Shown here: piece after piece, positions 11,572 through 43,327 of the stretch | Numbering within the stretch: the stretch's first letter is position 1 | How the letters are laid out: every line of letters starts with the position of its first letter | Assembly: GCF_000504285.1 (NCBI RefSeq) | Contig: NZ_KI632511.1 | Location: forward strand, 6,678,154-6,742,153 | Origin: Actinospica robiniae DSM 44927 | Lineage (GTDB): Bacteria; Actinomycetota; Actinomycetes; Streptomycetales; Catenulisporaceae | Length of the DNA: 64,000 bases | Direction: 5' to 3' | The notes under the pieces: generated by a model | Told to the model about the DNA's origin: nothing | Databases searched by the model: none | What the model saw: the letters and a program-made list of their open reading frames with translations, nothing else | Translations under genes and position numbers: made by a program

Positions 11572-12494
11572 TGAATCCCGCTACCCCGCGTCCGGTGCCG
11601 GTGCCTGCGAACATCGAGGTCGACGCGCGCCTCGCCGGGCCGTTTACCGCCCGGCAGTGCGCGATCCTCGCGGTCACCGCGGCGTTCGCGCTCGCCGAGG
11701 GCGAGGCTCTGCGCGCCATCTCGTGTCTCTCGCCCGTGGTCGTGATCGCCGCTGTGGCGCCGGTGGTGTTCGCGGGATGCCTGCTGGCGCTGGTCAAGCC
11801 CGGCGGCGTGTCGGCCGACCGGCTGCTGTGCGCCGCGATCAGGTATCTGCGGACCGCTCGCACGCGGGCCAGCGCTGCGCCGCGTGTCGCGCTACCCGAC
11901 GGGGTCGCCCGCCTCGTGCCGCTCTATCAGCACATCGACGAACAGGACGGGGCCGGTGTCGTCGAGCTCGACGGCCAGGAGGCCGCCGTAGTGATCGAAG
12001 CGCGGCCGCGCTGCCTGCAGCTCGCCGACGCCGACGAGGCCCGCGCGGTGCTGGTGGCGATTGGAACCGTGCTGGCCGCGCAGTCCGGGTCCTTTTGCCT
12101 CTCCACGCTCACCGAGCGCGTCAGCCTGGACGAGCGTGCCCAGATCGCAGCCGAGACCGCCGAACTCCTCACCACACCCCAGCTCGCTGATCTCGCCAGA
12201 CGGCAGGCCGAACACGTGCGCGACCTGGCCGGCGGCCGCGAGCTGTGGCACCGCAGACACCTGATTACGATCCGAGAGGCGGGTGCCGGGGCGCCGACTC
12301 GTGCCGCACATCGCGCCCGAGCCACGACGCAGTTACTGGAATCCTGCGGAATCAAGTCCCGTGTCCTGGATCCGGCCGAGTTGACCGCGCTGCTCATCGC
12401 AGCCTGCGCACCCGAGCGTTCTTTCCTTCCAAAACGCCTCGCGCCGCCCGGCCGTCCGGTCACGGCACGCCTCTTGATCTTGGAGCAGGAATGA
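11571..12494 (+). CDS. PrgI-family T4SS membrane protein (VirB3-like position)
   Basis: 307 residues. The N-terminus is the PrgI pattern: PVPANIEVDARLAGPFTARQ, followed by two close membrane segments, as in proteins that sit beside VirB4 in Gram-positive conjugation systems. The rest (from ~100) is a soluble domain without obvious motifs. It may hold VirB4 at the membrane. It starts inside the stop of the preceding gene and ends with an ATGA overlap with virB4, so the three proteins are made together. Confidence 0.78.
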   Translation: MNPATPRPVPVPANIEVDARLAGPFTARQCAILAVTAAFALAEGEALRAISCLSPVVVIAAVAPVVFAGCLLALVKPGGVSADRLLCAAIRYLRTARTRASAAPRVALPDGVARLVPLYQHIDEQDGAGVVELDGQEAAVVIEARPRCLQLADADEARAVLVAIGTVLAAQSGSFCLSTLTERVSLDERAQIAAETAELLTTPQLADLARRQAEHVRDLAGGRELWHRRHLITIREAGAGAPTRAAHRARATTQLLESCGIKSRVLDPAELTALLIAACAPERSFLPKRLAPPGRPVTARLLILEQE

Positions 12495-14176
12495 GTGCCG
12501 TGGCGTCCCCGGCCGGTATCCACATCCATCCACGTTCTGTGGAAATCGACGGCGTCCACGCGACCACGTTGGCGGTGACCGGCTATCCGGCCGAGGTGCT
12601 GCCCGGCTGGCTCGAAGCGCTCACCGCGTATCCCGCGCGCCTCGACGTCGCCCTGCACGCCGAATCGGTCCCCCCACAGATCGCCGCGGACAGACTGCGC
12701 AGGCGCCGCACCCGGCTAGAAGCCGGGCGCCGCGAGGGTGCGGGCCGAGGCCGGATCGATGACCCACAGGTCGAATCCGCCGCCCAGGACGCGGCCGAGC
12801 TCGCCGGGCGCATCGCCCGGTCTGAGACGAAACTGTTCACCGCCGGCCTCTACCTGACCTGCTACGCGGAGTCGGCCGAGGATCTCGCGCACCTCGTCGG
12901 CGACGTGAAGGCGCTGCTCTCGGCCTCGCTCACGACCGTGCAATCACCGACGTTCCGCATCCTCGCGGCCTGGCAGGCCACGCTGCCGGGCGGACCGGAC
13001 CGCATCGGGCAGGTCAGGATCCTCGATACCGCCGCGCTCGCGGCATGCGCGCCGCTGACCAGCCCCGAGATCGGCGACGAAGAATCGCTCTCGGTTACGG
13101 CCGTGTTCGCGGGGCTCTCGGCGGTCACCGGCGCTCCGGTGTTCCGCGACCGCTGGGCCGAGGTGAACCACAATAGCCTGATTCTCGGCGCGTCCGGGGC
13201 CGGGAAGTCGTACCTGGCCAAGACAGACCTAATCAGGGAGCTGTGTACGGGAACGGTCGGGACGGTGATCGACCCGGAGGGCGAGTACGTCGCGCTGGCC
13301 GAGGCCGTCGGCGGCCGGATCATCGAGCTCGGCCTGCCCGGCGGCGCGCTGAACGTGCTCGAGCTCCCGCACCCGGATGCGGCAGGGCCCTGCGAGCTGG
13401 CGAGCCGGGTGCTGGACCTGCACGCCCTGTGCGCGGTACTCATCGGTACCGAGCGCGCAGAGCGGCTGCGCCCGGCCTTGGACCGGGCCGCGATGAACGC
13501 CTACCGCACAGCCGGGATCAGCGAGGACACCTCGACCTGGGTACGCCCGGCACCGGACCTCGCCGCCGTCGCGCAGCAGGCGGCCGCAGGGTTCGACCCC
13601 GCTTCGATGGAACTGGCCGGGCTCCTTGAGCCGTATGCGGCCGGGTCGTACGCCGCGCCGTTCAACCGCGCAGAGCCTGAGCGCGAGGGCGAGGCGCCGC
13701 TGACGGTGTACACGCTGCGGCACCTGCCCGACGCGCTGCGACCGGCGGGAATAATGCTGGTGCTCTCGCGGATCTGGAGCGAAGCGCGTCGCGGTGAGCG
13801 CCGGCGGATGCTGCTGATCGACGAGGTCTGGCAGCTGCTTCAGGAGCCGGACGCCGCACGGTTCGTGCTGCGGTTAGCGAAATCCGCGCGCAAGTATCGG
13901 CTTGGGCTCTCCCTCGCCACCCAGGACGTCGGCGACCTTCTCGCTTCGGACCTCGGCACGGCGGTGGCGTGCAACGCGGCGATCCAGATCCTGCTCGGCC
14001 AGGCGCCCCAAGCCCTCGCGCGCGTCACCGACGCTTTCGACCTCACGGCGGGTGAGCGCGACTTCGTGGCCACCGCGCCGCGCGGCTACGCCCTGCAGCG
14101 CACCCGCGCCGGACGCACGGCCCTCGCCGTGATCGCCACCCCCGACGAAGAACCGTTCCTGCACACCGGCATCTGA
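12491..14176 (+). CDS. VirB4-type conjugation ATPase
   Basis: 561 residues. The ATPase powers T4SS assembly and substrate transfer at the membrane. The Walker A motif is ILGASGAGKSYLAK (about residue 233), followed by a strand with IDPEGEY; Walker B is RMLLIDEVWQLLQE (about 440). The final part shows TQDVGDLLASDLGTAVACN, the sensor-like region of VirB4/TraC. The ATG at 12491 overlaps the preceding stop. The protein is rather short for VirB4 (often 600-800), with a compact N-terminal domain. Confidence 0.9.
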   Translation: MSAVASPAGIHIHPRSVEIDGVHATTLAVTGYPAEVLPGWLEALTAYPARLDVALHAESVPPQIAADRLRRRRTRLEAGRREGAGRGRIDDPQVESAAQDAAELAGRIARSETKLFTAGLYLTCYAESAEDLAHLVGDVKALLSASLTTVQSPTFRILAAWQATLPGGPDRIGQVRILDTAALAACAPLTSPEIGDEESLSVTAVFAGLSAVTGAPVFRDRWAEVNHNSLILGASGAGKSYLAKTDLIRELCTGTVGTVIDPEGEYVALAEAVGGRIIELGLPGGALNVLELPHPDAAGPCELASRVLDLHALCAVLIGTERAERLRPALDRAAMNAYRTAGISEDTSTWVRPAPDLAAVAQQAAAGFDPASMELAGLLEPYAAGSYAAPFNRAEPEREGEAPLTVYTLRHLPDALRPAGIMLVLSRIWSEARRGERRRMLLIDEVWQLLQEPDAARFVLRLAKSARKYRLGLSLATQDVGDLLASDLGTAVACNAAIQILLGQAPQALARVTDAFDLTAGERDFVATAPRGYALQRTRAGRTALAVIATPDEEPFLHTGI

Positions 14177-14207
14177 ACCCGCCGCCTAACCAGAGAAGGC
14201 CGCACCC

Positions 14208-16697
14208 ATGATGAACCTGCACACTGACCCCTTCGCTGTGCTCGCCCCGGCCGGCTGGCTGACGTCCGCACTGCGCGAAGCGAGGGCTCTGGCCATCCGG
14301 GACTGGCCGCAAGTCTCGATCACCGCCGCATTCTCGGCCTACAGCGCGACCGCGACCGTGAGCCGGACACGCCGCCACAGAAGGAACCAGCTGCTGACCG
14401 GGGCACGCGTGCTGGAGATCGCCTGCCCGCCCGAATCCTCCCCGTCAGGTGCGGTCACGCTGTGGAGCAACCTGCTCGGGCTGCACCGGCCCCGCTCCGC
14501 CCGGCTCATCCACGGCCAGCCGCACGTCGCGTTCGAATACGTCTTCACCGGCCGTGAGCTCTCGATCCGGATGTGGGTGCCCGGCCGGGTCCCGCCGCGG
14601 ATGGTCGAGCGCGCGATCGAGGCGGCCTGGCCCGGCGCCCGCGCGAAAGCACTCGACCTGCCCCTCTCCCCGCTGCCCCCGGCCGGCCCCGGCGACGCGG
14701 TGACCGGCGGGCGGCTCGTGCTCGCGCGTACCGAGGCGCTCCCGTTGAACGTCAAGCACGACGCCGATCCCCTGCGCGCCTTGATCGGCGCGGGAACTGC
14801 GCTGGGTGCGGGTCAGGGTGCGTGCGTGCAGGTACTGGCCCGACCCGCCTCCAGCCGGCGGGTCGCGCGTGCACGCCACCGGCTACGCCGCCTGGAAGGC
14901 AAGCAGTACGCCACGGCCACATCCATGCTCTTCGACACCCTTACTCCCGGCCGCGCCGACGGCGCCAGGCCGAGCGCGTTCATGGACGCGCGCCTGGTCG
15001 CCGACGCCCGAGCCGCAGCCGGCAAGCTCGCCGGCCCCCTGTACGAGGCGGAGATCCGCTACGCCGCTCTCGCCCCGGGCACCGACCGCAACAGCATCCA
15101 CCGGAATCAGCGCGTGTGCCGCCGCACCTGCGACGGCGCCCCGATGGCCCAGGCCCGCGGTACCGCGCACGCGCTGGCGTCGGCCACCTGCGTGTACGCC
15201 GAGCGCAACTTCCTGCGCCGTCGCCGACTGCCGGACCCGGCCCGCCGTGTCCAACTGCGTGACATGGACCGTAGTCAGCTCTTCTCGGTCGCCGAACTCG
15301 CCGCGCTGGCGCATCTGCCGTGGGACGTCAACGCCCCGGGACTAACCAGGGCCGGTGCCCGGGCGACCGCGCCCGCCCCGGCGCTGCCCACGGGCGGTGA
15401 CGGCGGCGCGAAAGTGCTCGGGGACGCGGATGCGGGTCCGGCGCGAGCGGTCGCGCTTCCGGTGGCCGACGCACGCCAGCACGTGCACATGCTGGGCAAG
15501 ACCGGGTCGGGCAAGTCCACGCTGCTGGTGAACCTGATCCTGCAAGACGCCGAAGCCGGGCGCGGCCAGGTCGTGATCGACCCGATGGGCGACCTCGTCA
15601 GCAATGTCATCGACCGGCTACCCGGTGCGGCACTCAACCGCCCGGTCGTGCTGTTCGACCCCTGCGACGAGACGGTGCCGGTGCCGCGGGTGAACATGCT
15701 CGACGGCGCCGAACCCTACCTGGCCACGGACCACCTGGTCGGGATCTTCTCGAAGATCTACAGCGGGTTCTGGGGGCCGCGCACCGACGATCTGCTGCGC
15801 GCAGCCTGCCTGACGCTGATGCAGGCGGACCGGGCGCGGGCGGACCTGCCGTTCCCCACGCTGGCCGAGGTACCGGAACTCCTGACAGACGCGCGGATCC
15901 GACGCCGCTACACCGACGCGCTCCGTTACGACCGACACCGGGTTCTGCTGAACTTCTGGGCCGGCTACGAGCAGCACTCCGAGGCAGCCCGCGCCCAGCT
16001 CACGGCGCCTCTGCTCAACAAGCTGCGCGGGTTCCTGATGCGCGACTACCCGGCCAGGGTCATCGCGTCCGGGCCCACCGACATCGACATGCAGGCCGTG
16101 CTCTCCGGCGGGCTGCTGCTCGCGCGGCTGCCCAAGGGCGTGCTGGGGGAGGAGACCTCGCGGCTGCTCGGCAGCTTCCTGATCGCCAAGACCTGGCAGG
16201 GCGCCACCGCCCGCGCGGCCCTGAGCCCGGATACGCACCGGCCGGACGCGACGCTGATCGTCGATGAGGCGCACACCTATCTCAACCTGCCGCTGCGGGT
16301 GGAGGACATGCTCGCCGAGGCGCGCGGCTACCGCCTCTCGCTCATGCTCGCGCACCAGGACCTCGGGCAGCTGCCGGCCGCTATGCGGGAGGCGATCTCC
16401 GCGAACGCCCGCAGCAAGATCTACTTCAATACCTCGCCCGAGGACGCCGCGAAGCTCGCCAAGCACACCTACCCGAACCTCGGCGAACACGACCTGTCCC
16501 GACTCGGCGCGTACCAGGCCGCCGTCCGCCTCGTGGTCGGCGGAGACGAACAGCCCGCGTGCACCCTGGCGACCAGACCCATGCCGCCGGCCATCCCCGG
16601 CCGCGCAACCGAGCTACGTACGCGACTGGCCGGCAACGGCGGCCCTTCCGAGACCACCAGCAGCACCGGCACCACCGAGCAGGAGGTACCCTCATGA
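14208..16697 (+). CDS. VirD4/TraG-like coupling ATPase
   Basis: 829 residues. It likely brings the DNA substrate to the channel. The N-terminal ~400 residues lack motifs and contain no strong membrane segment, unlike classical VirD4, so it may rely on partners for membrane attachment. Walker A is HMLGKTGSGKSTLL (about 427), the following strand gives VVIDPMGDLV, and Walker B is ATLIVDEAHTYLN (about 683), then MLAHQDLGQLP. This order is that of the TraG/VirD4 and HerA-like hexameric motor family. Either of two ATG codons at 14208/14211 could start it. It ends with an ATGA overlap with the next gene. Confidence 0.87.
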   Translation: MMNLHTDPFAVLAPAGWLTSALREARALAIRDWPQVSITAAFSAYSATATVSRTRRHRRNQLLTGARVLEIACPPESSPSGAVTLWSNLLGLHRPRSARLIHGQPHVAFEYVFTGRELSIRMWVPGRVPPRMVERAIEAAWPGARAKALDLPLSPLPPAGPGDAVTGGRLVLARTEALPLNVKHDADPLRALIGAGTALGAGQGACVQVLARPASSRRVARARHRLRRLEGKQYATATSMLFDTLTPGRADGARPSAFMDARLVADARAAAGKLAGPLYEAEIRYAALAPGTDRNSIHRNQRVCRRTCDGAPMAQARGTAHALASATCVYAERNFLRRRRLPDPARRVQLRDMDRSQLFSVAELAALAHLPWDVNAPGLTRAGARATAPAPALPTGGDGGAKVLGDADAGPARAVALPVADARQHVHMLGKTGSGKSTLLVNLILQDAEAGRGQVVIDPMGDLVSNVIDRLPGAALNRPVVLFDPCDETVPVPRVNMLDGAEPYLATDHLVGIFSKIYSGFWGPRTDDLLRAACLTLMQADRARADLPFPTLAEVPELLTDARIRRRYTDALRYDRHRVLLNFWAGYEQHSEAARAQLTAPLLNKLRGFLMRDYPARVIASGPTDIDMQAVLSGGLLLARLPKGVLGEETSRLLGSFLIAKTWQGATARAALSPDTHRPDATLIVDEAHTYLNLPLRVEDMLAEARGYRLSLMLAHQDLGQLPAAMREAISANARSKIYFNTSPEDAAKLAKHTYPNLGEHDLSRLGAYQAAVRLVVGGDEQPACTLATRPMPPAIPGRATELRTRLAGNGGPSETTSSTGTTEQEVPS

Positions 16698-37326: not shown

Positions 37327-38583
37327 CTACTCCTCCCGGCTGCGCAGCAACGGCGCCAGCTCGGCGAGCGTCTCGTTGAGGCGGTCGATCTCGGTGTCCG
37401 TGTTCGTCGCGGTCACCTGGACGCGGAATCCGGCCTGGTTCTTCGGCACCAGGGGGTACGCGGCGATGGTGACGTAGATGCCCCGGTCCCACAGGATCCG
37501 GGCGACTTCGTCGATGTCTGATGCCTCGCGCAGCGGCAGCTCGATCACCGGGAAGCCGCTGGTGTTCGGACTGTCCAGTCCCAGTGCACTGATTTGGTCG
37601 AGCACGCGCTTCGTCTTGCGGTACAGGTCCGCCCTGATCTGCTCGCCGCGGGCCTCGTTCACGTCGAAGCCGGCCAGCACCGTGGCCAGCGACGCGGTGG
37701 GGACGGGGCCGGAGTACAGGTACGGCGCTGCGGCGAACTTCAGCAGCTCCTTCGTCTCCGTCGGCAGAGCCATGAACGCCAGCAGCGACGAGTACGCCTT
37801 CGAGAATCCGCCGACGAGGATCATGCCGTCGTAGCTCTCGCCGAGGTGGCGCACGACGCTGTTGCCGCGGGCGCCGTAGGGGGAGGTCTCGTCCTCCCGC
37901 CGCTCGCCGATCACGCCGAAGCCGTGGGCGTCGTCCACGTACAGCGTCGCGCCGGTGGCACGGCAGATCTTGGCGATGCGCGGCAGGTCCGGCGGATTTC
38001 CCGTCATGCTGTTGATGCCGTCCATGCACACCAGGCGCGGCTTGTCCCTCGGGGCCTGGCGCAGCAGGTCGCCGAGCTGGTCGAGCTCGCCGGCGTGCCA
38101 GCGGTGCAGCTGGGCGCCCTGGCCCTTGGCCACCGAGCAGCCGTCGAAGATGGTGCGGTGCGCCTGCGCCTCGCACAGGACCGTGCCGTGTTCGGCCAGC
38201 ACCGGGATCGCGGTCAGGTGGATGGTGGTGATCGTGGGGAGCACGAGCGTGTCGGGGGCGGCCAGCAGCTCGGTCAGGCGTTCCTCGATCTCGGGGTACA
38301 GCCGCGGGTTTCCGAGCAGGCGCGACCAGCTGGGGTGGGTGCCCCAGCGCGCGATCTGCTCCTGCGGCGCCGCCATGATCTCCGGGTCGAGGTCGAAGCC
38401 GAGGTAGTTGCAGGAGGCGAAGTCGGCCAGCCAGTGGTCGCCGATCCGGATCATCCGGCCGTCGATCTCGTCGATGACCGCGTCGAAGAAGTGCGTGTCC
38501 TGCTTGAGTCGGGCCAGCTCCTGCCAGCGCGGGGCCGGGGCCCTGGTGTCGTTCGCCTTGGGTGCGCCGCTTGCGCTGTTCAT
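37327..38583 (-). CDS. Alpha-oxoamine synthase family PLP enzyme
   Basis: 418 residues. The fold-type-I PLP enzymes of this family (BioF, Kbl, HemA, serine palmitoyltransferase, CqsA) join an amino acid and an acyl-CoA with loss of CO2. Marks seen: FASCNYLGFDLDPEI, LYVDDAHGFGVIGE (Asp and His stacking PLP), and GGFSKAYSS with the Schiff-base Lys near 260. No biotin or heme genes are nearby. Its start overlaps the stop of the GGDEF-EAL gene (ATGA), so both are made together. A role in making a small amino-ketone signal or a lipid base is possible; substrate unknown. Confidence 0.85.
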   Translation of the reverse strand: MNSASGAPKANDTRAPAPRWQELARLKQDTHFFDAVIDEIDGRMIRIGDHWLADFASCNYLGFDLDPEIMAAPQEQIARWGTHPSWSRLLGNPRLYPEIEERLTELLAAPDTLVLPTITTIHLTAIPVLAEHGTVLCEAQAHRTIFDGCSVAKGQGAQLHRWHAGELDQLGDLLRQAPRDKPRLVCMDGINSMTGNPPDLPRIAKICRATGATLYVDDAHGFGVIGERREDETSPYGARGNSVVRHLGESYDGMILVGGFSKAYSSLLAFMALPTETKELLKFAAAPYLYSGPVPTASLATVLAGFDVNEARGEQIRADLYRKTKRVLDQISALGLDSPNTSGFPVIELPLREASDIDEVARILWDRGIYVTIAAYPLVPKNQAGFRVQVTATNTDTEIDRLNETLAELAPLLRSREE

Positions 38584-41000
38584 CTTTCCCGTCCTTCCAC
38601 CTGAGCGGTGATGGCCGCGACCCGGTCGATCGGGACCGCGGAGGAATAGAGGTACCCCTGGCCGAAGGAACAGCCCATTTCGCGCAGCAGCTGTTGCTGC
38701 TGCTCGGTCTCCACACCCTCGGCCACCACGTCGATGCCGAGGGCGGAGGCGACCGTCACAATGCCCTGCAACAGCGCCAGATGGCCCTGGTCCTCGCCGA
38801 TCCGGTCCACGAAGGACTTGTCGGCCTTCAGGATGTGGATGCTCAGATCGCGCAGATAGGCGATGGACGAGTAGCCGGTGCCGAAGTCGTCCACGGCGAT
38901 GCGCACGCCGAGTGCGGAGAGCGCGTTGAGGTTGCGGGAGACCTCGGGGCCGTGATGGTGCAGGAACGCGGTCTCGGTGATCTCCAGGATCAGCAGCTTC
39001 GCGGGCAGGCCCTCGCTCAGCAGCTTGCGGTGGATCTCGTCGACCATGCCGTCCTCGAGGAACTGGTGGGCCGAGACGTTCACGGTGACGTGCCGGGTCT
39101 GGTCTTGCGCGCGGCCGGCGTTCCAGGCGGCCGCGTCGGCGATGGCGCGGCCGAGCACCCAGGCGCCGAGCTGGATGATCTGGCCGGTCTCCTCGGCCAG
39201 CGGGATGAACTGGTCCGGCGGGAGCAGGCCGAGTTCGGGATGCTGCCAGCGCACCAGGGCCTCGAATCCGGCGACGCGCAGGGGGCCGGACAGCCGCACG
39301 ATCGGCTGGTAGGCGAGGAAGACCTCTTCCCGCTCGATCGCCAGGTCCAGGCTGGTGCGCAGCCGCATCCGCTCCATCGCCGCCTCGTAGAGCTGCGGCT
39401 GGTAGCGGCGCCAGATGGCTTTGCCGTCGGCCTTGGCCTCGTACAGGGCGAGGTCCGCGTTGCGCAGCAGGATGTCGGCGGCGTCCTCGCCCTCGTCCTC
39501 GACCAGCGGCGTGGCGTCCGCGCTGGTGGCGACGCCGATGCTGGCCCGTACGTCGGATTGGGCGTCCCAGATCAGGAACGGCGCGCTGAAGGTGCGGATC
39601 AGCCGTGCGGCCAGGGCCTCGGCGCCGTCGGGCGGGGAACCGTCGGCGAGCAGCACGGCGAACTCGTCGCCGCCGAAGCGGGCGGCGAGGTCGCCGGGGC
39701 GCACGGCGGCCTTGAGCCGTCCGGCGGCGGCCTTGAGCAGTTCGTCCCCGGCGCGGTGGCCGAGGGTGTCGTTGACCTCTTTGAAGTTGTCCAGGTCGAT
39801 CAGCAGCATGCACACTTCGCCGCCGGACTCCCGCACCCGGCCGAACGCCCGTTCGGCGCGCTCCTGGAACTTGGCCCGGTTGGCCAGGCCGGTGAGCGCG
39901 TCGTGGTACGCCCGGTTGCGCAGCTCGCGCAGCATGGCCCGGCTCTGCGCGAGGCTCTCCTGCTGGCGCAGCTGGCGGCCCTGCAGGGAGAGCCGGATGA
40001 TGACGAGGATGAACATGACCGCCGAGAACACGGCGATGACCGGCGCGTCGTGCAGGCTGCGTTTGAGCGCTTCGAACAGCAGCAGCGCGGGGGCGATCAG
40101 GGCGGTGACCGCGAGCGGGAAGACGCGGCCGGTGGCGAGCGGGCCGCCGCGCAGGTTGGGGCGGGTCAGGTCGATCATCGAGGGGTGCAGCGCGGCGCAG
40201 GCCCAGCTGATGTAGAACACCACCCAGCCGAGGTCGGCGGGCGAGCCGACGTGCCAGGTGCCGTAGAGCCGCACGGTCAGGTACGCGATGTCCGAGGTCA
40301 TCAGGCCGAGCGAGCCGACCACGAGCAGGATGGCCGAGGGCCCGCGCACGCCGCCGCCGGTGAGCAGCCGCAGGATGACCACGAGCAGCAGGACGTCGCC
40401 GATGGGGTAGCCGACCGAGACGGCGCTGTTGAACCACGGCACCGACCTCTGGTTGACCGTCGGGGTGATGATGAACACCCAGATGATCAGGGTCAGGCCC
40501 GCGGCCAGCAATAGCGCGTCGACCAGCGCGGTGACGTCGCGGTCCGGATTGCGCAGCCGGACCATCATGATGATCCCGCCGGCCGCCAGCGGATAGGTGA
40601 ACAGGTAGGACGCGTCCGCGACGGAGGGGAAGGGCTCGTTCTGGTGGAAGACGTCGGTCAGGACGTTGTAGATCGTGTCGCCGTTGATCAGCGTGAACAT
40701 CGCCAGGGCGAGCAGGTACCAGGGCAGGCGCTTGTCGGGATGGTTGAGCCGGGTGCCGACCAGCGTGGCGGCGGAGCAGCACAGCCCCAGGGTCGCCCAG
40801 ACCGGCAGCTGCCACTGCGGCTTGGCGTAGTAGATGATCACCACCAGCGCCATCGCCGCGGCGAACCAGATGGTGGCGTACTCCATCACCGGGCGCACGG
40901 CGTCGCGGGCGCGGTCGGGATCGGGATCGGGGCCGTCGTCGGTCGCGGGCGTGGCGATGCGCTCGACGTCCAGCGCCTCACCGCCGCCTGTCCGTGCCAT
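38580..41000 (-). CDS. Membrane GGDEF-EAL protein (cyclic di-GMP turnover)
   Basis: 806 residues. About eight to nine membrane helices fill residues 40-320 and form an integral-membrane sensor. The GGDEF domain (~370-530) keeps the active signature RFGGDEFAVLL (~440). The EAL domain (~545-800) keeps GFEALVRWQHP (~580), NVSAHQF, ILEITETAF and the DDFGTGYSS loop with KADKSFV. Both activities could therefore be present. In streptomycetes cyclic di-GMP controls development. The start at 41000 has no strong ribosome site; a later ATG at the MEYATIWF position is possible. Confidence 0.9.
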   Translation of the reverse strand: MARTGGGEALDVERIATPATDDGPDPDPDRARDAVRPVMEYATIWFAAAMALVVIIYYAKPQWQLPVWATLGLCCSAATLVGTRLNHPDKRLPWYLLALAMFTLINGDTIYNVLTDVFHQNEPFPSVADASYLFTYPLAAGGIIMMVRLRNPDRDVTALVDALLLAAGLTLIIWVFIITPTVNQRSVPWFNSAVSVGYPIGDVLLLVVILRLLTGGGVRGPSAILLVVGSLGLMTSDIAYLTVRLYGTWHVGSPADLGWVVFYISWACAALHPSMIDLTRPNLRGGPLATGRVFPLAVTALIAPALLLFEALKRSLHDAPVIAVFSAVMFILVIIRLSLQGRQLRQQESLAQSRAMLRELRNRAYHDALTGLANRAKFQERAERAFGRVRESGGEVCMLLIDLDNFKEVNDTLGHRAGDELLKAAAGRLKAAVRPGDLAARFGGDEFAVLLADGSPPDGAEALAARLIRTFSAPFLIWDAQSDVRASIGVATSADATPLVEDEGEDAADILLRNADLALYEAKADGKAIWRRYQPQLYEAAMERMRLRTSLDLAIEREEVFLAYQPIVRLSGPLRVAGFEALVRWQHPELGLLPPDQFIPLAEETGQIIQLGAWVLGRAIADAAAWNAGRAQDQTRHVTVNVSAHQFLEDGMVDEIHRKLLSEGLPAKLLILEITETAFLHHHGPEVSRNLNALSALGVRIAVDDFGTGYSSIAYLRDLSIHILKADKSFVDRIGEDQGHLALLQGIVTVASALGIDVVAEGVETEQQQQLLREMGCSFGQGYLYSSAVPIDRVAAITAQVEGRER

Positions 41001-41149: not shown

Positions 41150-43222
41150 TCACCCGGTCAGGGAGAAGTCGTCCGCGTAGTAGGTGCCCTCGCCGTACCA
41201 GCCGTGCACGTACACGGTCAGTGAGGTCTGGGACGCGCCGGTGGTGATGCTCAGCGAGAGGGGCTGGTAGCCGCCGGCGCTCGGGGTCCAGTTGTCGCCG
41301 CCGCCGGTGTCTCCGATGAAGACGTAGGCGCCCTCGACGTACCCGCTGAGTGTGTAGGTGTGGTTGGGCGAGACGGTGACGGTCTGCGTGCACTGGGCGT
41401 CGTCCGAGTTGGACGCGGCGCCGGAGAGCGCGTGGCTGCCGGAGTGCACCGGCGAGCCGACCACCGAGTCCACGCTCGAGCAGGTCCAGCCGGTCAGGCT
41501 GCCGGCCTCGAAGCCCGGGTTGGTCAGCAGGTTGCCGCCGGAGCCCGTGCCGGTGGAGCTCGCGCTGGGGCTGGCCGAAGCGCTCTTCGAGGGGGAAGCA
41601 CTGGCCGACGCCGACGCGCTGGCCGAGGCGCTGGCCGACGCGGAGGCGCTCGCGGACGCGGACTTGCTCGCGCTCGCGGAGGCGCTGGAGGTCGGCGGCG
41701 CGGTCGGGCAGCTGCTCGCGGAGCCGTTCATGTCGGTCACGGCGTCGTTGAACAGCGTCGTGCCCGGGTCGAGGTCGTAGAGCGAGAACATCATGAAGCC
41801 GCCGTATCCGTTGCAGTGCACGTAGTTCGCCTGCGTCTGGATGGACTGGGCGGATTCGCCTCCGTAGAAGTTCGTCCCGTCATAGAAGTAGGCCGAATCG
41901 GTGACGGGATCCCAGTACGTGTCCGCGGAGTTGGCGACGACGTTCTCGATCTCCTTGTACATCGCCACGCCTGGGACGGCCCCGGACAAGGTCTGCCCGG
42001 CCGATGGTCCGGATGCCGTCTGATAGAGCCCGTGGTTCGAGCCAGCCGCCACCCCGGTCCAGCCGCGGTAGTAGAACGGGATGCCCACTAAGAGTTTGCT
42101 CGCCGGGAAGCCGCCGGTGATCCCGTATTGGGAGTCCCCGCTGCTCCAGGCTCTCATCGCGTTGTCGATGCTGTAGGTCTCGCTCCCGCCGGCCGCCGGG
42201 GTCTCGGGCGAGTTCGGGTTGGCGAACAGCGGGTTCTGCTCGTCGGTCGGGCCGGTCGCGTTCCAGGCGCCGTACATGTCGTAGGTCATGACGTCGCCGA
42301 AGGTCAGGTACTGGCCGATCTGGCTGGTCTGGATCTTGTCGATCTTGTCCTGGCCGCCCGGCAGCGCGGCGGCGAGGGCGTAGGTCTTGCCGTTGGCGGT
42401 GCCGGCCGTGTTGAGCTCGCTGCGGAACTCGGCCAGCAGGGCGGTGTAGTCGGCGGTGTCGTTGGGGGAGGTGATGTTGCCGAGGTGGCCGCCGGTCGAA
42501 TCGGGGTACTCCCAGTCGATGTCGAAGCCGTCGAAGATCCCGGCCGCCGAGCCGGTGCCGCCGTAGCCGTTCTCCACCGGGAGGTTGCCGTTGATGAACA
42601 TGTTGATGCAGGAGGAGACGAAGGCCTGCCGGGAGCTCGCGCTGGCCGCCATCGGGGAGAAGTACTTCGAGTAGGTCCAGCCGCCGATGGAGAGCAGGAT
42701 CTTGAGGTTCGGGTACTTCGCCTTGAGTTCCTTGAGCTGGTTGAAGTTGCCCTCGATCGCCTGGTTGTAGACGTCGGCGGTGCCCGAGACGGAGTTGGCC
42801 GCGCTGTAGCTCATGCCGTAGTCGGCGACCGCGTCCTCGGCTCCGTCGCCGGCGTTCGGGTCGTTCTCGCCGGCCGGGTCGGGGTCGGTGGCCTTCGTGT
42901 TCTCGAAGCAGGTGTAGGGCGCGGTGTTGCTGATGTTCTCGAAGTCGTAGATCAGGTAGTTCAGCTTGCCCGCGATGCCCTCGGTGTCGAGGTCCTTGAG
43001 GTAGAAGGCGTTCTGGTAGACGGACCACTGGTCGTAGTAGGCGACCTTGAGTCCGCCGGTGGTGGCCGCGGCCGGGACCGCTCCGGTGCCGGCGGTGGCC
43101 GCGGCGGCCGAGCCGGCCCCGGCGGCGCCCGCGGCGACCAGGCCGGTGGCGACGAGGGCGGCGCACGCCATCGCCGCCGCGGCGCTCCGGCCGCGGCTGA
43201 GCATGGATGATCGGAATCGCAT
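41150..43222 (-). CDS. Secreted GH18 chitinase with C-terminal binding module
   Basis: 690 residues; ATG at 43222 with AGGAG just upstream. Signal peptide to about residue 42. The catalytic barrel (~55-510) shows ILLSIGGWTYSKYF and the GH18 motif FDGFDIDWEYP with the proton-donor Glu238, plus DVMTYDMYGAW and GYGGFMMFSLYDLDPG. A Ser/Ala repeat linker (~520-580, (SA)n and KSASASP) follows, then a jelly-roll carbohydrate module of the CBM4/9/16-like kind (NLLTNPGFEAGSLTGWTCSS). It degrades chitin to oligosaccharides outside the cell. Two DasR-like boxes lie 106-145 bp upstream, so GlcNAc control is likely. Confidence 0.93.
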   Translation of the reverse strand: MRFRSSMLSRGRSAAAAMACAALVATGLVAAGAAGAGSAAAATAGTGAVPAAATTGGLKVAYYDQWSVYQNAFYLKDLDTEGIAGKLNYLIYDFENISNTAPYTCFENTKATDPDPAGENDPNAGDGAEDAVADYGMSYSAANSVSGTADVYNQAIEGNFNQLKELKAKYPNLKILLSIGGWTYSKYFSPMAASASSRQAFVSSCINMFINGNLPVENGYGGTGSAAGIFDGFDIDWEYPDSTGGHLGNITSPNDTADYTALLAEFRSELNTAGTANGKTYALAAALPGGQDKIDKIQTSQIGQYLTFGDVMTYDMYGAWNATGPTDEQNPLFANPNSPETPAAGGSETYSIDNAMRAWSSGDSQYGITGGFPASKLLVGIPFYYRGWTGVAAGSNHGLYQTASGPSAGQTLSGAVPGVAMYKEIENVVANSADTYWDPVTDSAYFYDGTNFYGGESAQSIQTQANYVHCNGYGGFMMFSLYDLDPGTTLFNDAVTDMNGSASSCPTAPPTSSASASASKSASASASASASASASASASASASPSKSASASPSASSTGTGSGGNLLTNPGFEAGSLTGWTCSSVDSVVGSPVHSGSHALSGAASNSDDAQCTQTVTVSPNHTYTLSGYVEGAYVFIGDTGGGDNWTPSAGGYQPLSLSITTGASQTSLTVYVHGWYGEGTYYADDFSLTG

Positions 43223-43327
43223 GGTGCTCCTGGGTGCAAGAGGTGGGTGATCTCCGCGGCCCAGCGTGCGCGCGCCTCGCGTTGGCCTCTTTATCCGTGT
43301 ACTGCCGCCGGATGGCCGAGTCAAGGG

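Follow-up and report, generated by a model that had tools for sequence, protein, structure and literature searches.

Phylum-wide linkage of an alpha-oxoamine synthase to a membrane sensor domain in Actinomycetota suggests a signalling module that is fused in Streptomyces

The stretch of DNA analysed here (the window; 64,000 nucleotides) comes from Actinospica robiniae DSM 44927 (positions 6,678,154 to 6,742,153 of NZ_KI632511.1), whose genome of 9.92 Mb is a single contig. Its minus strand carries a gene for a membrane GGDEF-EAL protein of 806 aa (38580..41000), followed by a gene for an alpha-oxoamine synthase (AONS) of 418 aa that depends on pyridoxal 5'-phosphate (PLP; 37327..38583). Comparison across actinobacterial genomes makes it close to certain that the association of the two genes is real. 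It is slightly better than an even bet that the pair represents a synthase-receptor signalling module, in which the AONS makes a signal, the membrane domain of its partner reads it and an output follows. A broader proposal, which we put forward tentatively and with the chances somewhat against it, is a phylum-wide family in Actinomycetota in which a fatty amino-ketone signal produced by the AONS is read by a dedicated receptor domain with interchangeable outputs, all of it in one polypeptide in Streptomyces, including the protein CdgF. A preliminary description of the window, made from the sequence alone, had already suggested a signal-synthesis and second-messenger module; conserved linkage and an enzyme outside BioF and Kbl now strengthen this suggestion, and its signalling part keeps the standing of a proposal.

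Conservation of the pair, which the preliminary description had left as a check, turned out to span the phylum and to culminate in gene fusion. A scan of genome contigs with the enzyme yielded 367 relatives, and the best 80 of them together with 20 further relatives and the window constitute 101 loci, some genomes being included twice. The best 80 are all actinobacterial by name (Streptomyces, Actinoplanes and relatives, Catellatospora, Dactylosporangium, Catenulispora, Kineosporia and metagenome-assembled genomes [MAGs], one of the latter from Thermoleophilia), and the nearest named relative belongs to Actinospica durhamensis (87% identity). A GGDEF-EAL protein match adjoins the enzyme in 101 of 101 loci; two of the matches are partial, those of L065 and of L063, the latter at the end of a contig. 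The GGDEF-EAL gene comes first in 55 loci, a single open frame is found in 44 (in one of them, L105, the membrane part lies in a different frame), and the enzyme comes first in two MAGs (L091, L114). The commonest cluster of other neighbours is present at only 25 of the 101 loci. The complete linkage, the changes of order and the fusion rule out chance neighbours.

Merging of identical enzymes and addition of further loci resulted in 131 distinct loci of 143. The membrane domain is located within 7 kb in 125 of them and a GGDEF-EAL match in 122, of which 117 show the GGDEF motif and 119 the EAL motif (counted in the aligned piece only). The two parts are fused in 44 loci, the domain precedes the enzyme in 59 and follows it in 18, and they lie on opposite strands in four; divergent or convergent gene order also occurs among the added loci. 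The six loci without the domain comprise three with the enzyme at a contig end (L063, L167, L205), the partial GGDEF-EAL protein of L065, a mere enzyme fragment (L195) and L168, which has none.

The same picture emerges from sampled genomes. The enzyme was detected at E <= 1e-60 in 26 of 396 Actinomycetota genomes, and the membrane domain is found nearby on the same contig in 24 of the 25 besides that of the window (exception G186). Among 295 Streptomyces genomes, 52 harbor the enzyme and 55 the membrane domain (E <= 1e-30): 51 have both, one has the enzyme only (G630, a fragment), four the domain only and 239 neither (Fisher p 2.9e-51, a test that ignores kinship), and the two adjoin in 50 of the 52. 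This domain count is based on a single Streptomyces sequence as query, because profile A1 was built from linked domains and its scores favour these; the ranking of scores across the phylum is not used as evidence. Three Streptomyces copies with stops, broken frames or only an enzyme fragment are decayed (L193 in G652, L194 in G452, L195 in G630), which indicates that the module is being lost in places. Plasmids yielded no membrane-domain match, and no enzyme copy with at least 60% identity occurred among the 627 plasmid records that match an AONS. We found no paper on the pairing of an AONS with a membrane GGDEF-EAL protein in the part of the open-licence literature covered by our search.

In 44 of the 131 distinct loci both genes form one polypeptide of ~1,500 aa. 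All of these are Streptomycetaceae, namely 36 named strains (Streptomyces and one Actinacidiphila) and eight others from the same genus group. Forty of the 52 AONS of the Streptomyces sample lie in open frames no shorter than 1,400 aa; the frame in G652 counts only if two stops are read through. The fused protein of S. narbonensis (1,546 aa) consists of the membrane part, a PAS domain (499-613), GGDEF (627-783), EAL (807-1040) and Aminotran_1_2 (1201-1517). The linkers measure 52 to 113 residues (median 63.5, a motif-based measure). At 72.7% G+C a linker of median length would be open by chance with a probability of ~36% per locus, and one open frame therefore proves little; the case for a true fusion is the occurrence of 44 distinct in-frame loci, though these loci are related. 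All 44 linkers contain an in-frame ATG, GTG or TTG, and the AONS may be translated separately from the fused frames.

One of the fused genes has probably been described before. Genome G457, a single contig of 8,223,505 bases, contains eight GGDEF genes. Their positions track the vnz numbers listed in PMC6205966 for the chromosomal GGDEF genes of S. venezuelae, likewise eight, with r = 0.9998, compared with r of 0.92 or 0.85 for eight of the nine positions in the comparison genome G572. Judged by gene order, G457 would be S. venezuelae or very near, its fused gene of ~1,551 aa would be the same gene as cdgF, and the published protein would be extended to that length by the AONS domain. CdgF (vnz02140) has been reported as a 10TM-PAS-PAC-GGDEF-EAL protein with all key residues present, found in the membrane fraction alone and among the least expressed (PMC6205966). 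According to the same paper, it is unknown what cue the cyclic di-GMP (c-di-GMP) proteins of S. venezuelae, CdgF included, perceive through their N-terminal sensor domains. The main text of that paper uses none of the terms aminotransferase, PLP and transferase; as far as this text goes, the function of cdgF is undefined in print and no mention of a synthase domain was found.

The conserved partner of the AONS, and the proposed receptor, is the membrane sensor domain of the 806-aa protein (residues 39-345; 39966..40886, minus strand), as supported by an alignment of 34 sequences (A1), an AlphaFold model and the outputs that it carries elsewhere. The model is all helical (pLDDT 88.8, pTM 0.86), and its 12 helical segments can be read as about ten membrane helices. 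Pfam gives no match in the membrane part of the window protein and, for the homologue in L114, only a DUF6526 match below the cut-off; the PDB holds no sequence relative of the domain at E <= 1, and Foldseek found no match to its model at E <= 0.001. The best comparison with a structure like that of a G-protein-coupled receptor (GPCR) reached Z 11.3 (rmsd 3.9, 185 aligned), short of the Z of 13 below which matches between helical bundles call for caution. Matches of Z 9 to 11 include class C/T GPCRs and rhodopsins and are too weak to assign a known receptor fold. CdgC of S. venezuelae (in G457, by gene order) was likewise discarded as a close relative of the domain, with 85.6 bits vs 432 for the fused gene.

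Downstream of the sensor domain follow the GGDEF domain (residues 364-527; 39420..39911; Pfam 2.7e-40 for the whole protein) and the EAL domain (residues 550-786; 38643..39353; 3.4e-68), both on the minus strand. GGDEF, an RxxD five residues ahead of it, EALVRW and DDFGTG are all present in the translation, together with the other EAL residues that we take to be catalytic. By its motifs the protein classifies as a bifunctional GGDEF-EAL protein, with predicted cyclase and phosphodiesterase activity. The AONS start codon ATG (38583-38581) and the TGA that ends the GGDEF-EAL gene (38582-38580) overlap in an ATGA of 4 nt (38580..38583, minus strand). Both the overlap and the intact c-di-GMP domains had been claimed in the preliminary description and are borne out.

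Its coupling of the enzyme to c-di-GMP, by contrast, does not hold for all loci. In deep lineages the membrane domain beside the AONS carries a hybrid histidine kinase with receivers and Hpt in L164, a PAS-kinase-receiver followed by a LuxR-type regulator in L169, PAS-kinases in L171, L173 and L177, where separate membrane GGDEF-EAL genes lie beside it, and HisKA_3 kinases in L176 and L188 (outputs assigned by Pfam, in L173 and L177 by reading of the sequence). No GGDEF-EAL match is present within the locus stretches examined of L164, L169, L176 and L188. Since histidine kinases are borne on the same domain in some loci, the constant partner of the AONS is the membrane domain and not c-di-GMP. 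In the tree of the domain, a single clade (100/99) unites 17 linked rows of deep lineages, with kinase outputs interspersed among GGDEF-EAL ones. On this tree the linked or free state changes 6 times compared with 18.9 times when shuffled. Two unlinked Streptomyces domains, L076:18567-19484 (minus strand), which nests with the fused domains in the tree, and G682:C1:1859947, belong to a set of extra copies that are possibly additional receptors.

The exchange of outputs also bears on a rather unlikely alternative, namely that the membrane GGDEF-EAL protein responds to a different cue and in turn regulates the AONS, via c-di-GMP or a change of shape, the product being a lipid or secondary metabolite. 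Such a regulated enzyme would agree with the position of the AONS at the C-terminal, output end of the fusion, with the occurrence of the membrane domain without AONS, and with metabolic neighbours that could represent the product pathway (methyltransferase match in 60 of 131 loci). However, c-di-GMP is not constant, as documented by the four loci with a kinase output and no GGDEF-EAL match in their stretch, and the gene order can be reversed or divergent.

The enzyme itself is, on sequence criteria, a distinct AONS clade apart from BioF, Kbl, serine palmitoyltransferase (SPT), 5-aminolevulinate synthase (ALAS) and CqsA. The window AONS (Pfam Aminotran_1_2, 3.6e-24) matches 12 NCBIfam models, each of them below its cut-off, including those for BioF (TIGR00858, 175.7 bits vs 426.45), Kbl (NF005394, 146.7 vs 460; TIGR01822, 140.1 vs 493), SPT (NF047600, 160.6 vs 640; NF047599, 156.9 vs 500; NF047603, 118 vs 670) and CqsA (NF005526, 70.1 vs 428). 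A tree of 39 sequences, none of them an LqsA, included 18 module rows (15 core enzymes plus L164, L165 and L168), BioF and Kbl, each from E. coli and a second species, SPT over its cut-off, two ALAS, CqsA of Vibrio sp. THAF190c (over the cut-off), a PRK07505 protein and nine distant hits of the Streptomyces group. The 15 core enzymes group together (100/100) and are joined by L164, L165 and L168 (98/95). Twenty of the other rows are split from the module enzymes (100/100), with CqsA on the other side, as a long branch whose placement is unsure; the PRK07505 protein stands beside the module clade, but the program flagged its branch as long. Thus the phylogenetic placement envisaged in the preliminary description associates the enzyme with neither BioF nor Kbl, and membership in the CqsA family has to be given up in view of the NF005526 score and the tree.

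That an ordinary BioF or Kbl should lie by chance beside a GGDEF-EAL gene is already contradicted and hardly credible. Superfamily and fold are shared with these enzymes, but the separate clade, the NCBIfam scores and the conserved linkage oppose it, and the genome encodes its own Kbl (638.8 bits, above the cut-off of 460) and a BioF-like protein (401.4 bits vs 426.45).

Compared with the five reference families (BioF, Kbl, SPT, ALAS, CqsA), residues H142, D217, H220, K262 and R387 are invariant, and K262 (codon 37798..37800, minus strand), the PLP lysine by alignment, is conserved in 18 of 18 module enzymes. We take K262 to be the residue that binds PLP, H142 to be the stacking residue, D217 and H220 to be part of the DDAHG motif and R387 to bind the carboxylate. 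The AlphaFold model of the AONS (pLDDT 87.5) has AONS enzymes as its best structural matches (Z 44 to 38; top match Z 44.1, rmsd 4.2, 386 aligned); ThaOS, SPT, BioF and Kbl are tied at about Z 43-44, and CqsA reaches 38.1. Fold and key residues are those of the AONS superfamily, and a decarboxylative condensation of an amino acid with an acyl thioester is predicted. BioF and Kbl have this fold and these catalytic residues in common with the module enzyme; they differ by their separate clade and by three module-specific traits, i.e. an HPSW loop, an insertion of ~11 residues after GVIGE and SSLLAF after the PLP lysine. The HPSWSR signature of the window enzyme (residues 83-88; 38320..38337, minus strand) occupies a position where reference AONS mostly have a glycine-rich loop, and HPSW[ST]R was found in 119 of the 131 distinct loci.

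Hints on the product are provided by two loci in which the AONS is the C-terminal part of a larger protein with AMP-binding, DIP2-like, phosphopantetheine and AONS domains beside the membrane-domain sensor (L164:6809-10306, plus strand; L165:9230-12682, minus strand). The best PDB matches of its first part are fatty acyl-AMP ligases (FAALs), among them 3kxw, FadD32, FadD23 and FadD28; 3kxw is titled Saframycin Mx1 synthetase B in the PDB and is, we presume, a FAAL. The FAAL models of NCBIfam are matched below their cut-offs. In L165, assuming translation from the first start codon, the GGDEF-EAL gene overlaps the three-domain gene by 4 nt. This fusion of FAAL, acyl carrier protein (ACP) and AONS points to a fatty acyl substrate in L164 and L165, to judge by their domains. 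Within 7 kb of the enzyme, the 131 loci show an MFS_3 exporter match in 29, an S-adenosylmethionine (SAM) methyltransferase match in 60 and either of them in 88; the methyltransferase match is present in 43 of the 44 fused loci. The exporter is located at most 120 nt from the enzyme match in 20 loci, 13 of them of the Actinoplanes group, and not in the other sampled genera of Micromonosporaceae.

The three-domain fusions are also compatible with a role in lipid homeostasis, in which the AONS would make a sphingoid-like base of the envelope, supplied by FAAL and ACP and flipped by the MFS protein, and the membrane domain would read its level as feedback, with no signal between cells. SPT is among the closest folds (3a2b, Z 44.0, rmsd 4.2, 387 aligned) and resembles the module enzyme in its catalytic residues and in the acyl thioester chemistry predicted for the latter. 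Moreover, a short-chain dehydrogenase gene directly follows the diverged AONS gene of L168 (L168:593-1588, minus strand; G186) and has ketodihydrosphingosine reductase among its many hits (126.5 bits vs a cut-off of 400). However, the module enzyme is no SPT by family cut-offs or by its place in the tree, and the patchy occurrence (52 of 295 Streptomyces) is unlike that of a core lipid pathway; we regard this explanation as improbable, more so than control of the AONS by another cue.

For the synthase-receptor module that we favour, the basis at the sequence level comprises the linkage, the fusion, the swapping of outputs and the intact catalytic residues; substrate, product, ligand binding and the direction of the effect are inferred. 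The AONS would catalyse condensation between a fatty acyl thioester and an amino acid, yielding a lipophilic alpha-aminoketone, which might be methylated or exported in some lineages. The product would enter the membrane or leave the cell and then be bound by the membrane domain. Binding would tilt c-di-GMP turnover towards synthesis or breakdown, or act on a phosphorelay where the outputs are kinases, and the local concentration of the product would thereby be linked to development or metabolism. The step from receptor to cyclase is possible, as the membrane domain of CqsS grafted on an adenylate cyclase conferred a response to CAI-1 (PMC4821796).

The known alpha-hydroxyketone systems CqsA/CqsS of Vibrio and LqsA/LqsS of Legionella, both proteobacterial, also consist of an AONS gene beside a multi-helix membrane sensor, and the signal proposed for the module is of a fatty amino-ketone type. 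The module differs from them by an enzyme from another AONS clade (18% identical to Vibrio CqsA), a membrane domain to which no PDB entry is related by sequence (E <= 1), a mostly c-di-GMP output, the frequent union in one polypeptide, and the exporter or methyltransferase match near 88 of 131 loci. By analogy, the best reading is that it resembles these systems in logic and is built from other parts. A classification as quorum sensing would draw on the gene linkage, the fusion and the linkage to an exporter.

Several observations weigh against this proposal. The AONS-linked domains as a whole do not form one clade (p-AU 5.8e-47), and the window genome has seven membrane-domain genes, one beside the AONS and six without it (~1.5 kb flank). 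Twenty of 20 further membrane-domain loci show no AONS match within 5.6 to 13 kb; they were chosen for the absence of a strong adjacent AONS hit, and four of them belong to genomes that have an AONS elsewhere (G076, G100, G186 and G273). Extra or unlinked membrane domains are present in 11 of 295 Streptomyces, four without the enzyme and seven with the module. The unlinked copies and the domain tree rule out that the domain is exclusive to the module; free domains could be paralogues that bind different ligands, or what the domain senses may have nothing to do with the enzyme. A synthase and its receptor in one chain are odd for a signal between cells, and deletion of cdgF in S. venezuelae caused no developmental phenotype (PMC6205966). 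The AONS of L164 and L165 are only 38-40% identical to the window AONS (alignment), so a fatty substrate of the latter is an inference. Linkage to an exporter or a methyltransferase is not universal, and the window pair has neither match within 7 kb.

c-di-GMP is reported to control development and secondary metabolites in Streptomyces (PMC6205966; PMC7026642). Were the ligand a product of the AONS, signal and sensor would come from one gene, and an input to actinomycete c-di-GMP signalling would become directly testable. AONS-based signalling would then extend to Actinomycetota, where both the enzyme clade and the receptor family would be new.

Other genes were noted in passing. A gene for a GH18 chitinase with a carbohydrate-binding domain (41150-43324, minus strand) lies directly 5' of the pair in the same orientation, and a related gene occupies the chitinase position in Actinospica durhamensis. 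On a Klebsiella plasmid, an MFS transporter gene overlaps a PRK07505-type AONS gene (L219:1880-4221, plus strand), and a similar pair of MFS and AONS annotations is found on a plasmid of Klebsiella variicola and on one of E. coli. Elsewhere in the window, two adjoining genes with matches to TraG/TrwB-type ATPases (12245-16697, plus strand) are perhaps part of an integrated conjugative element.

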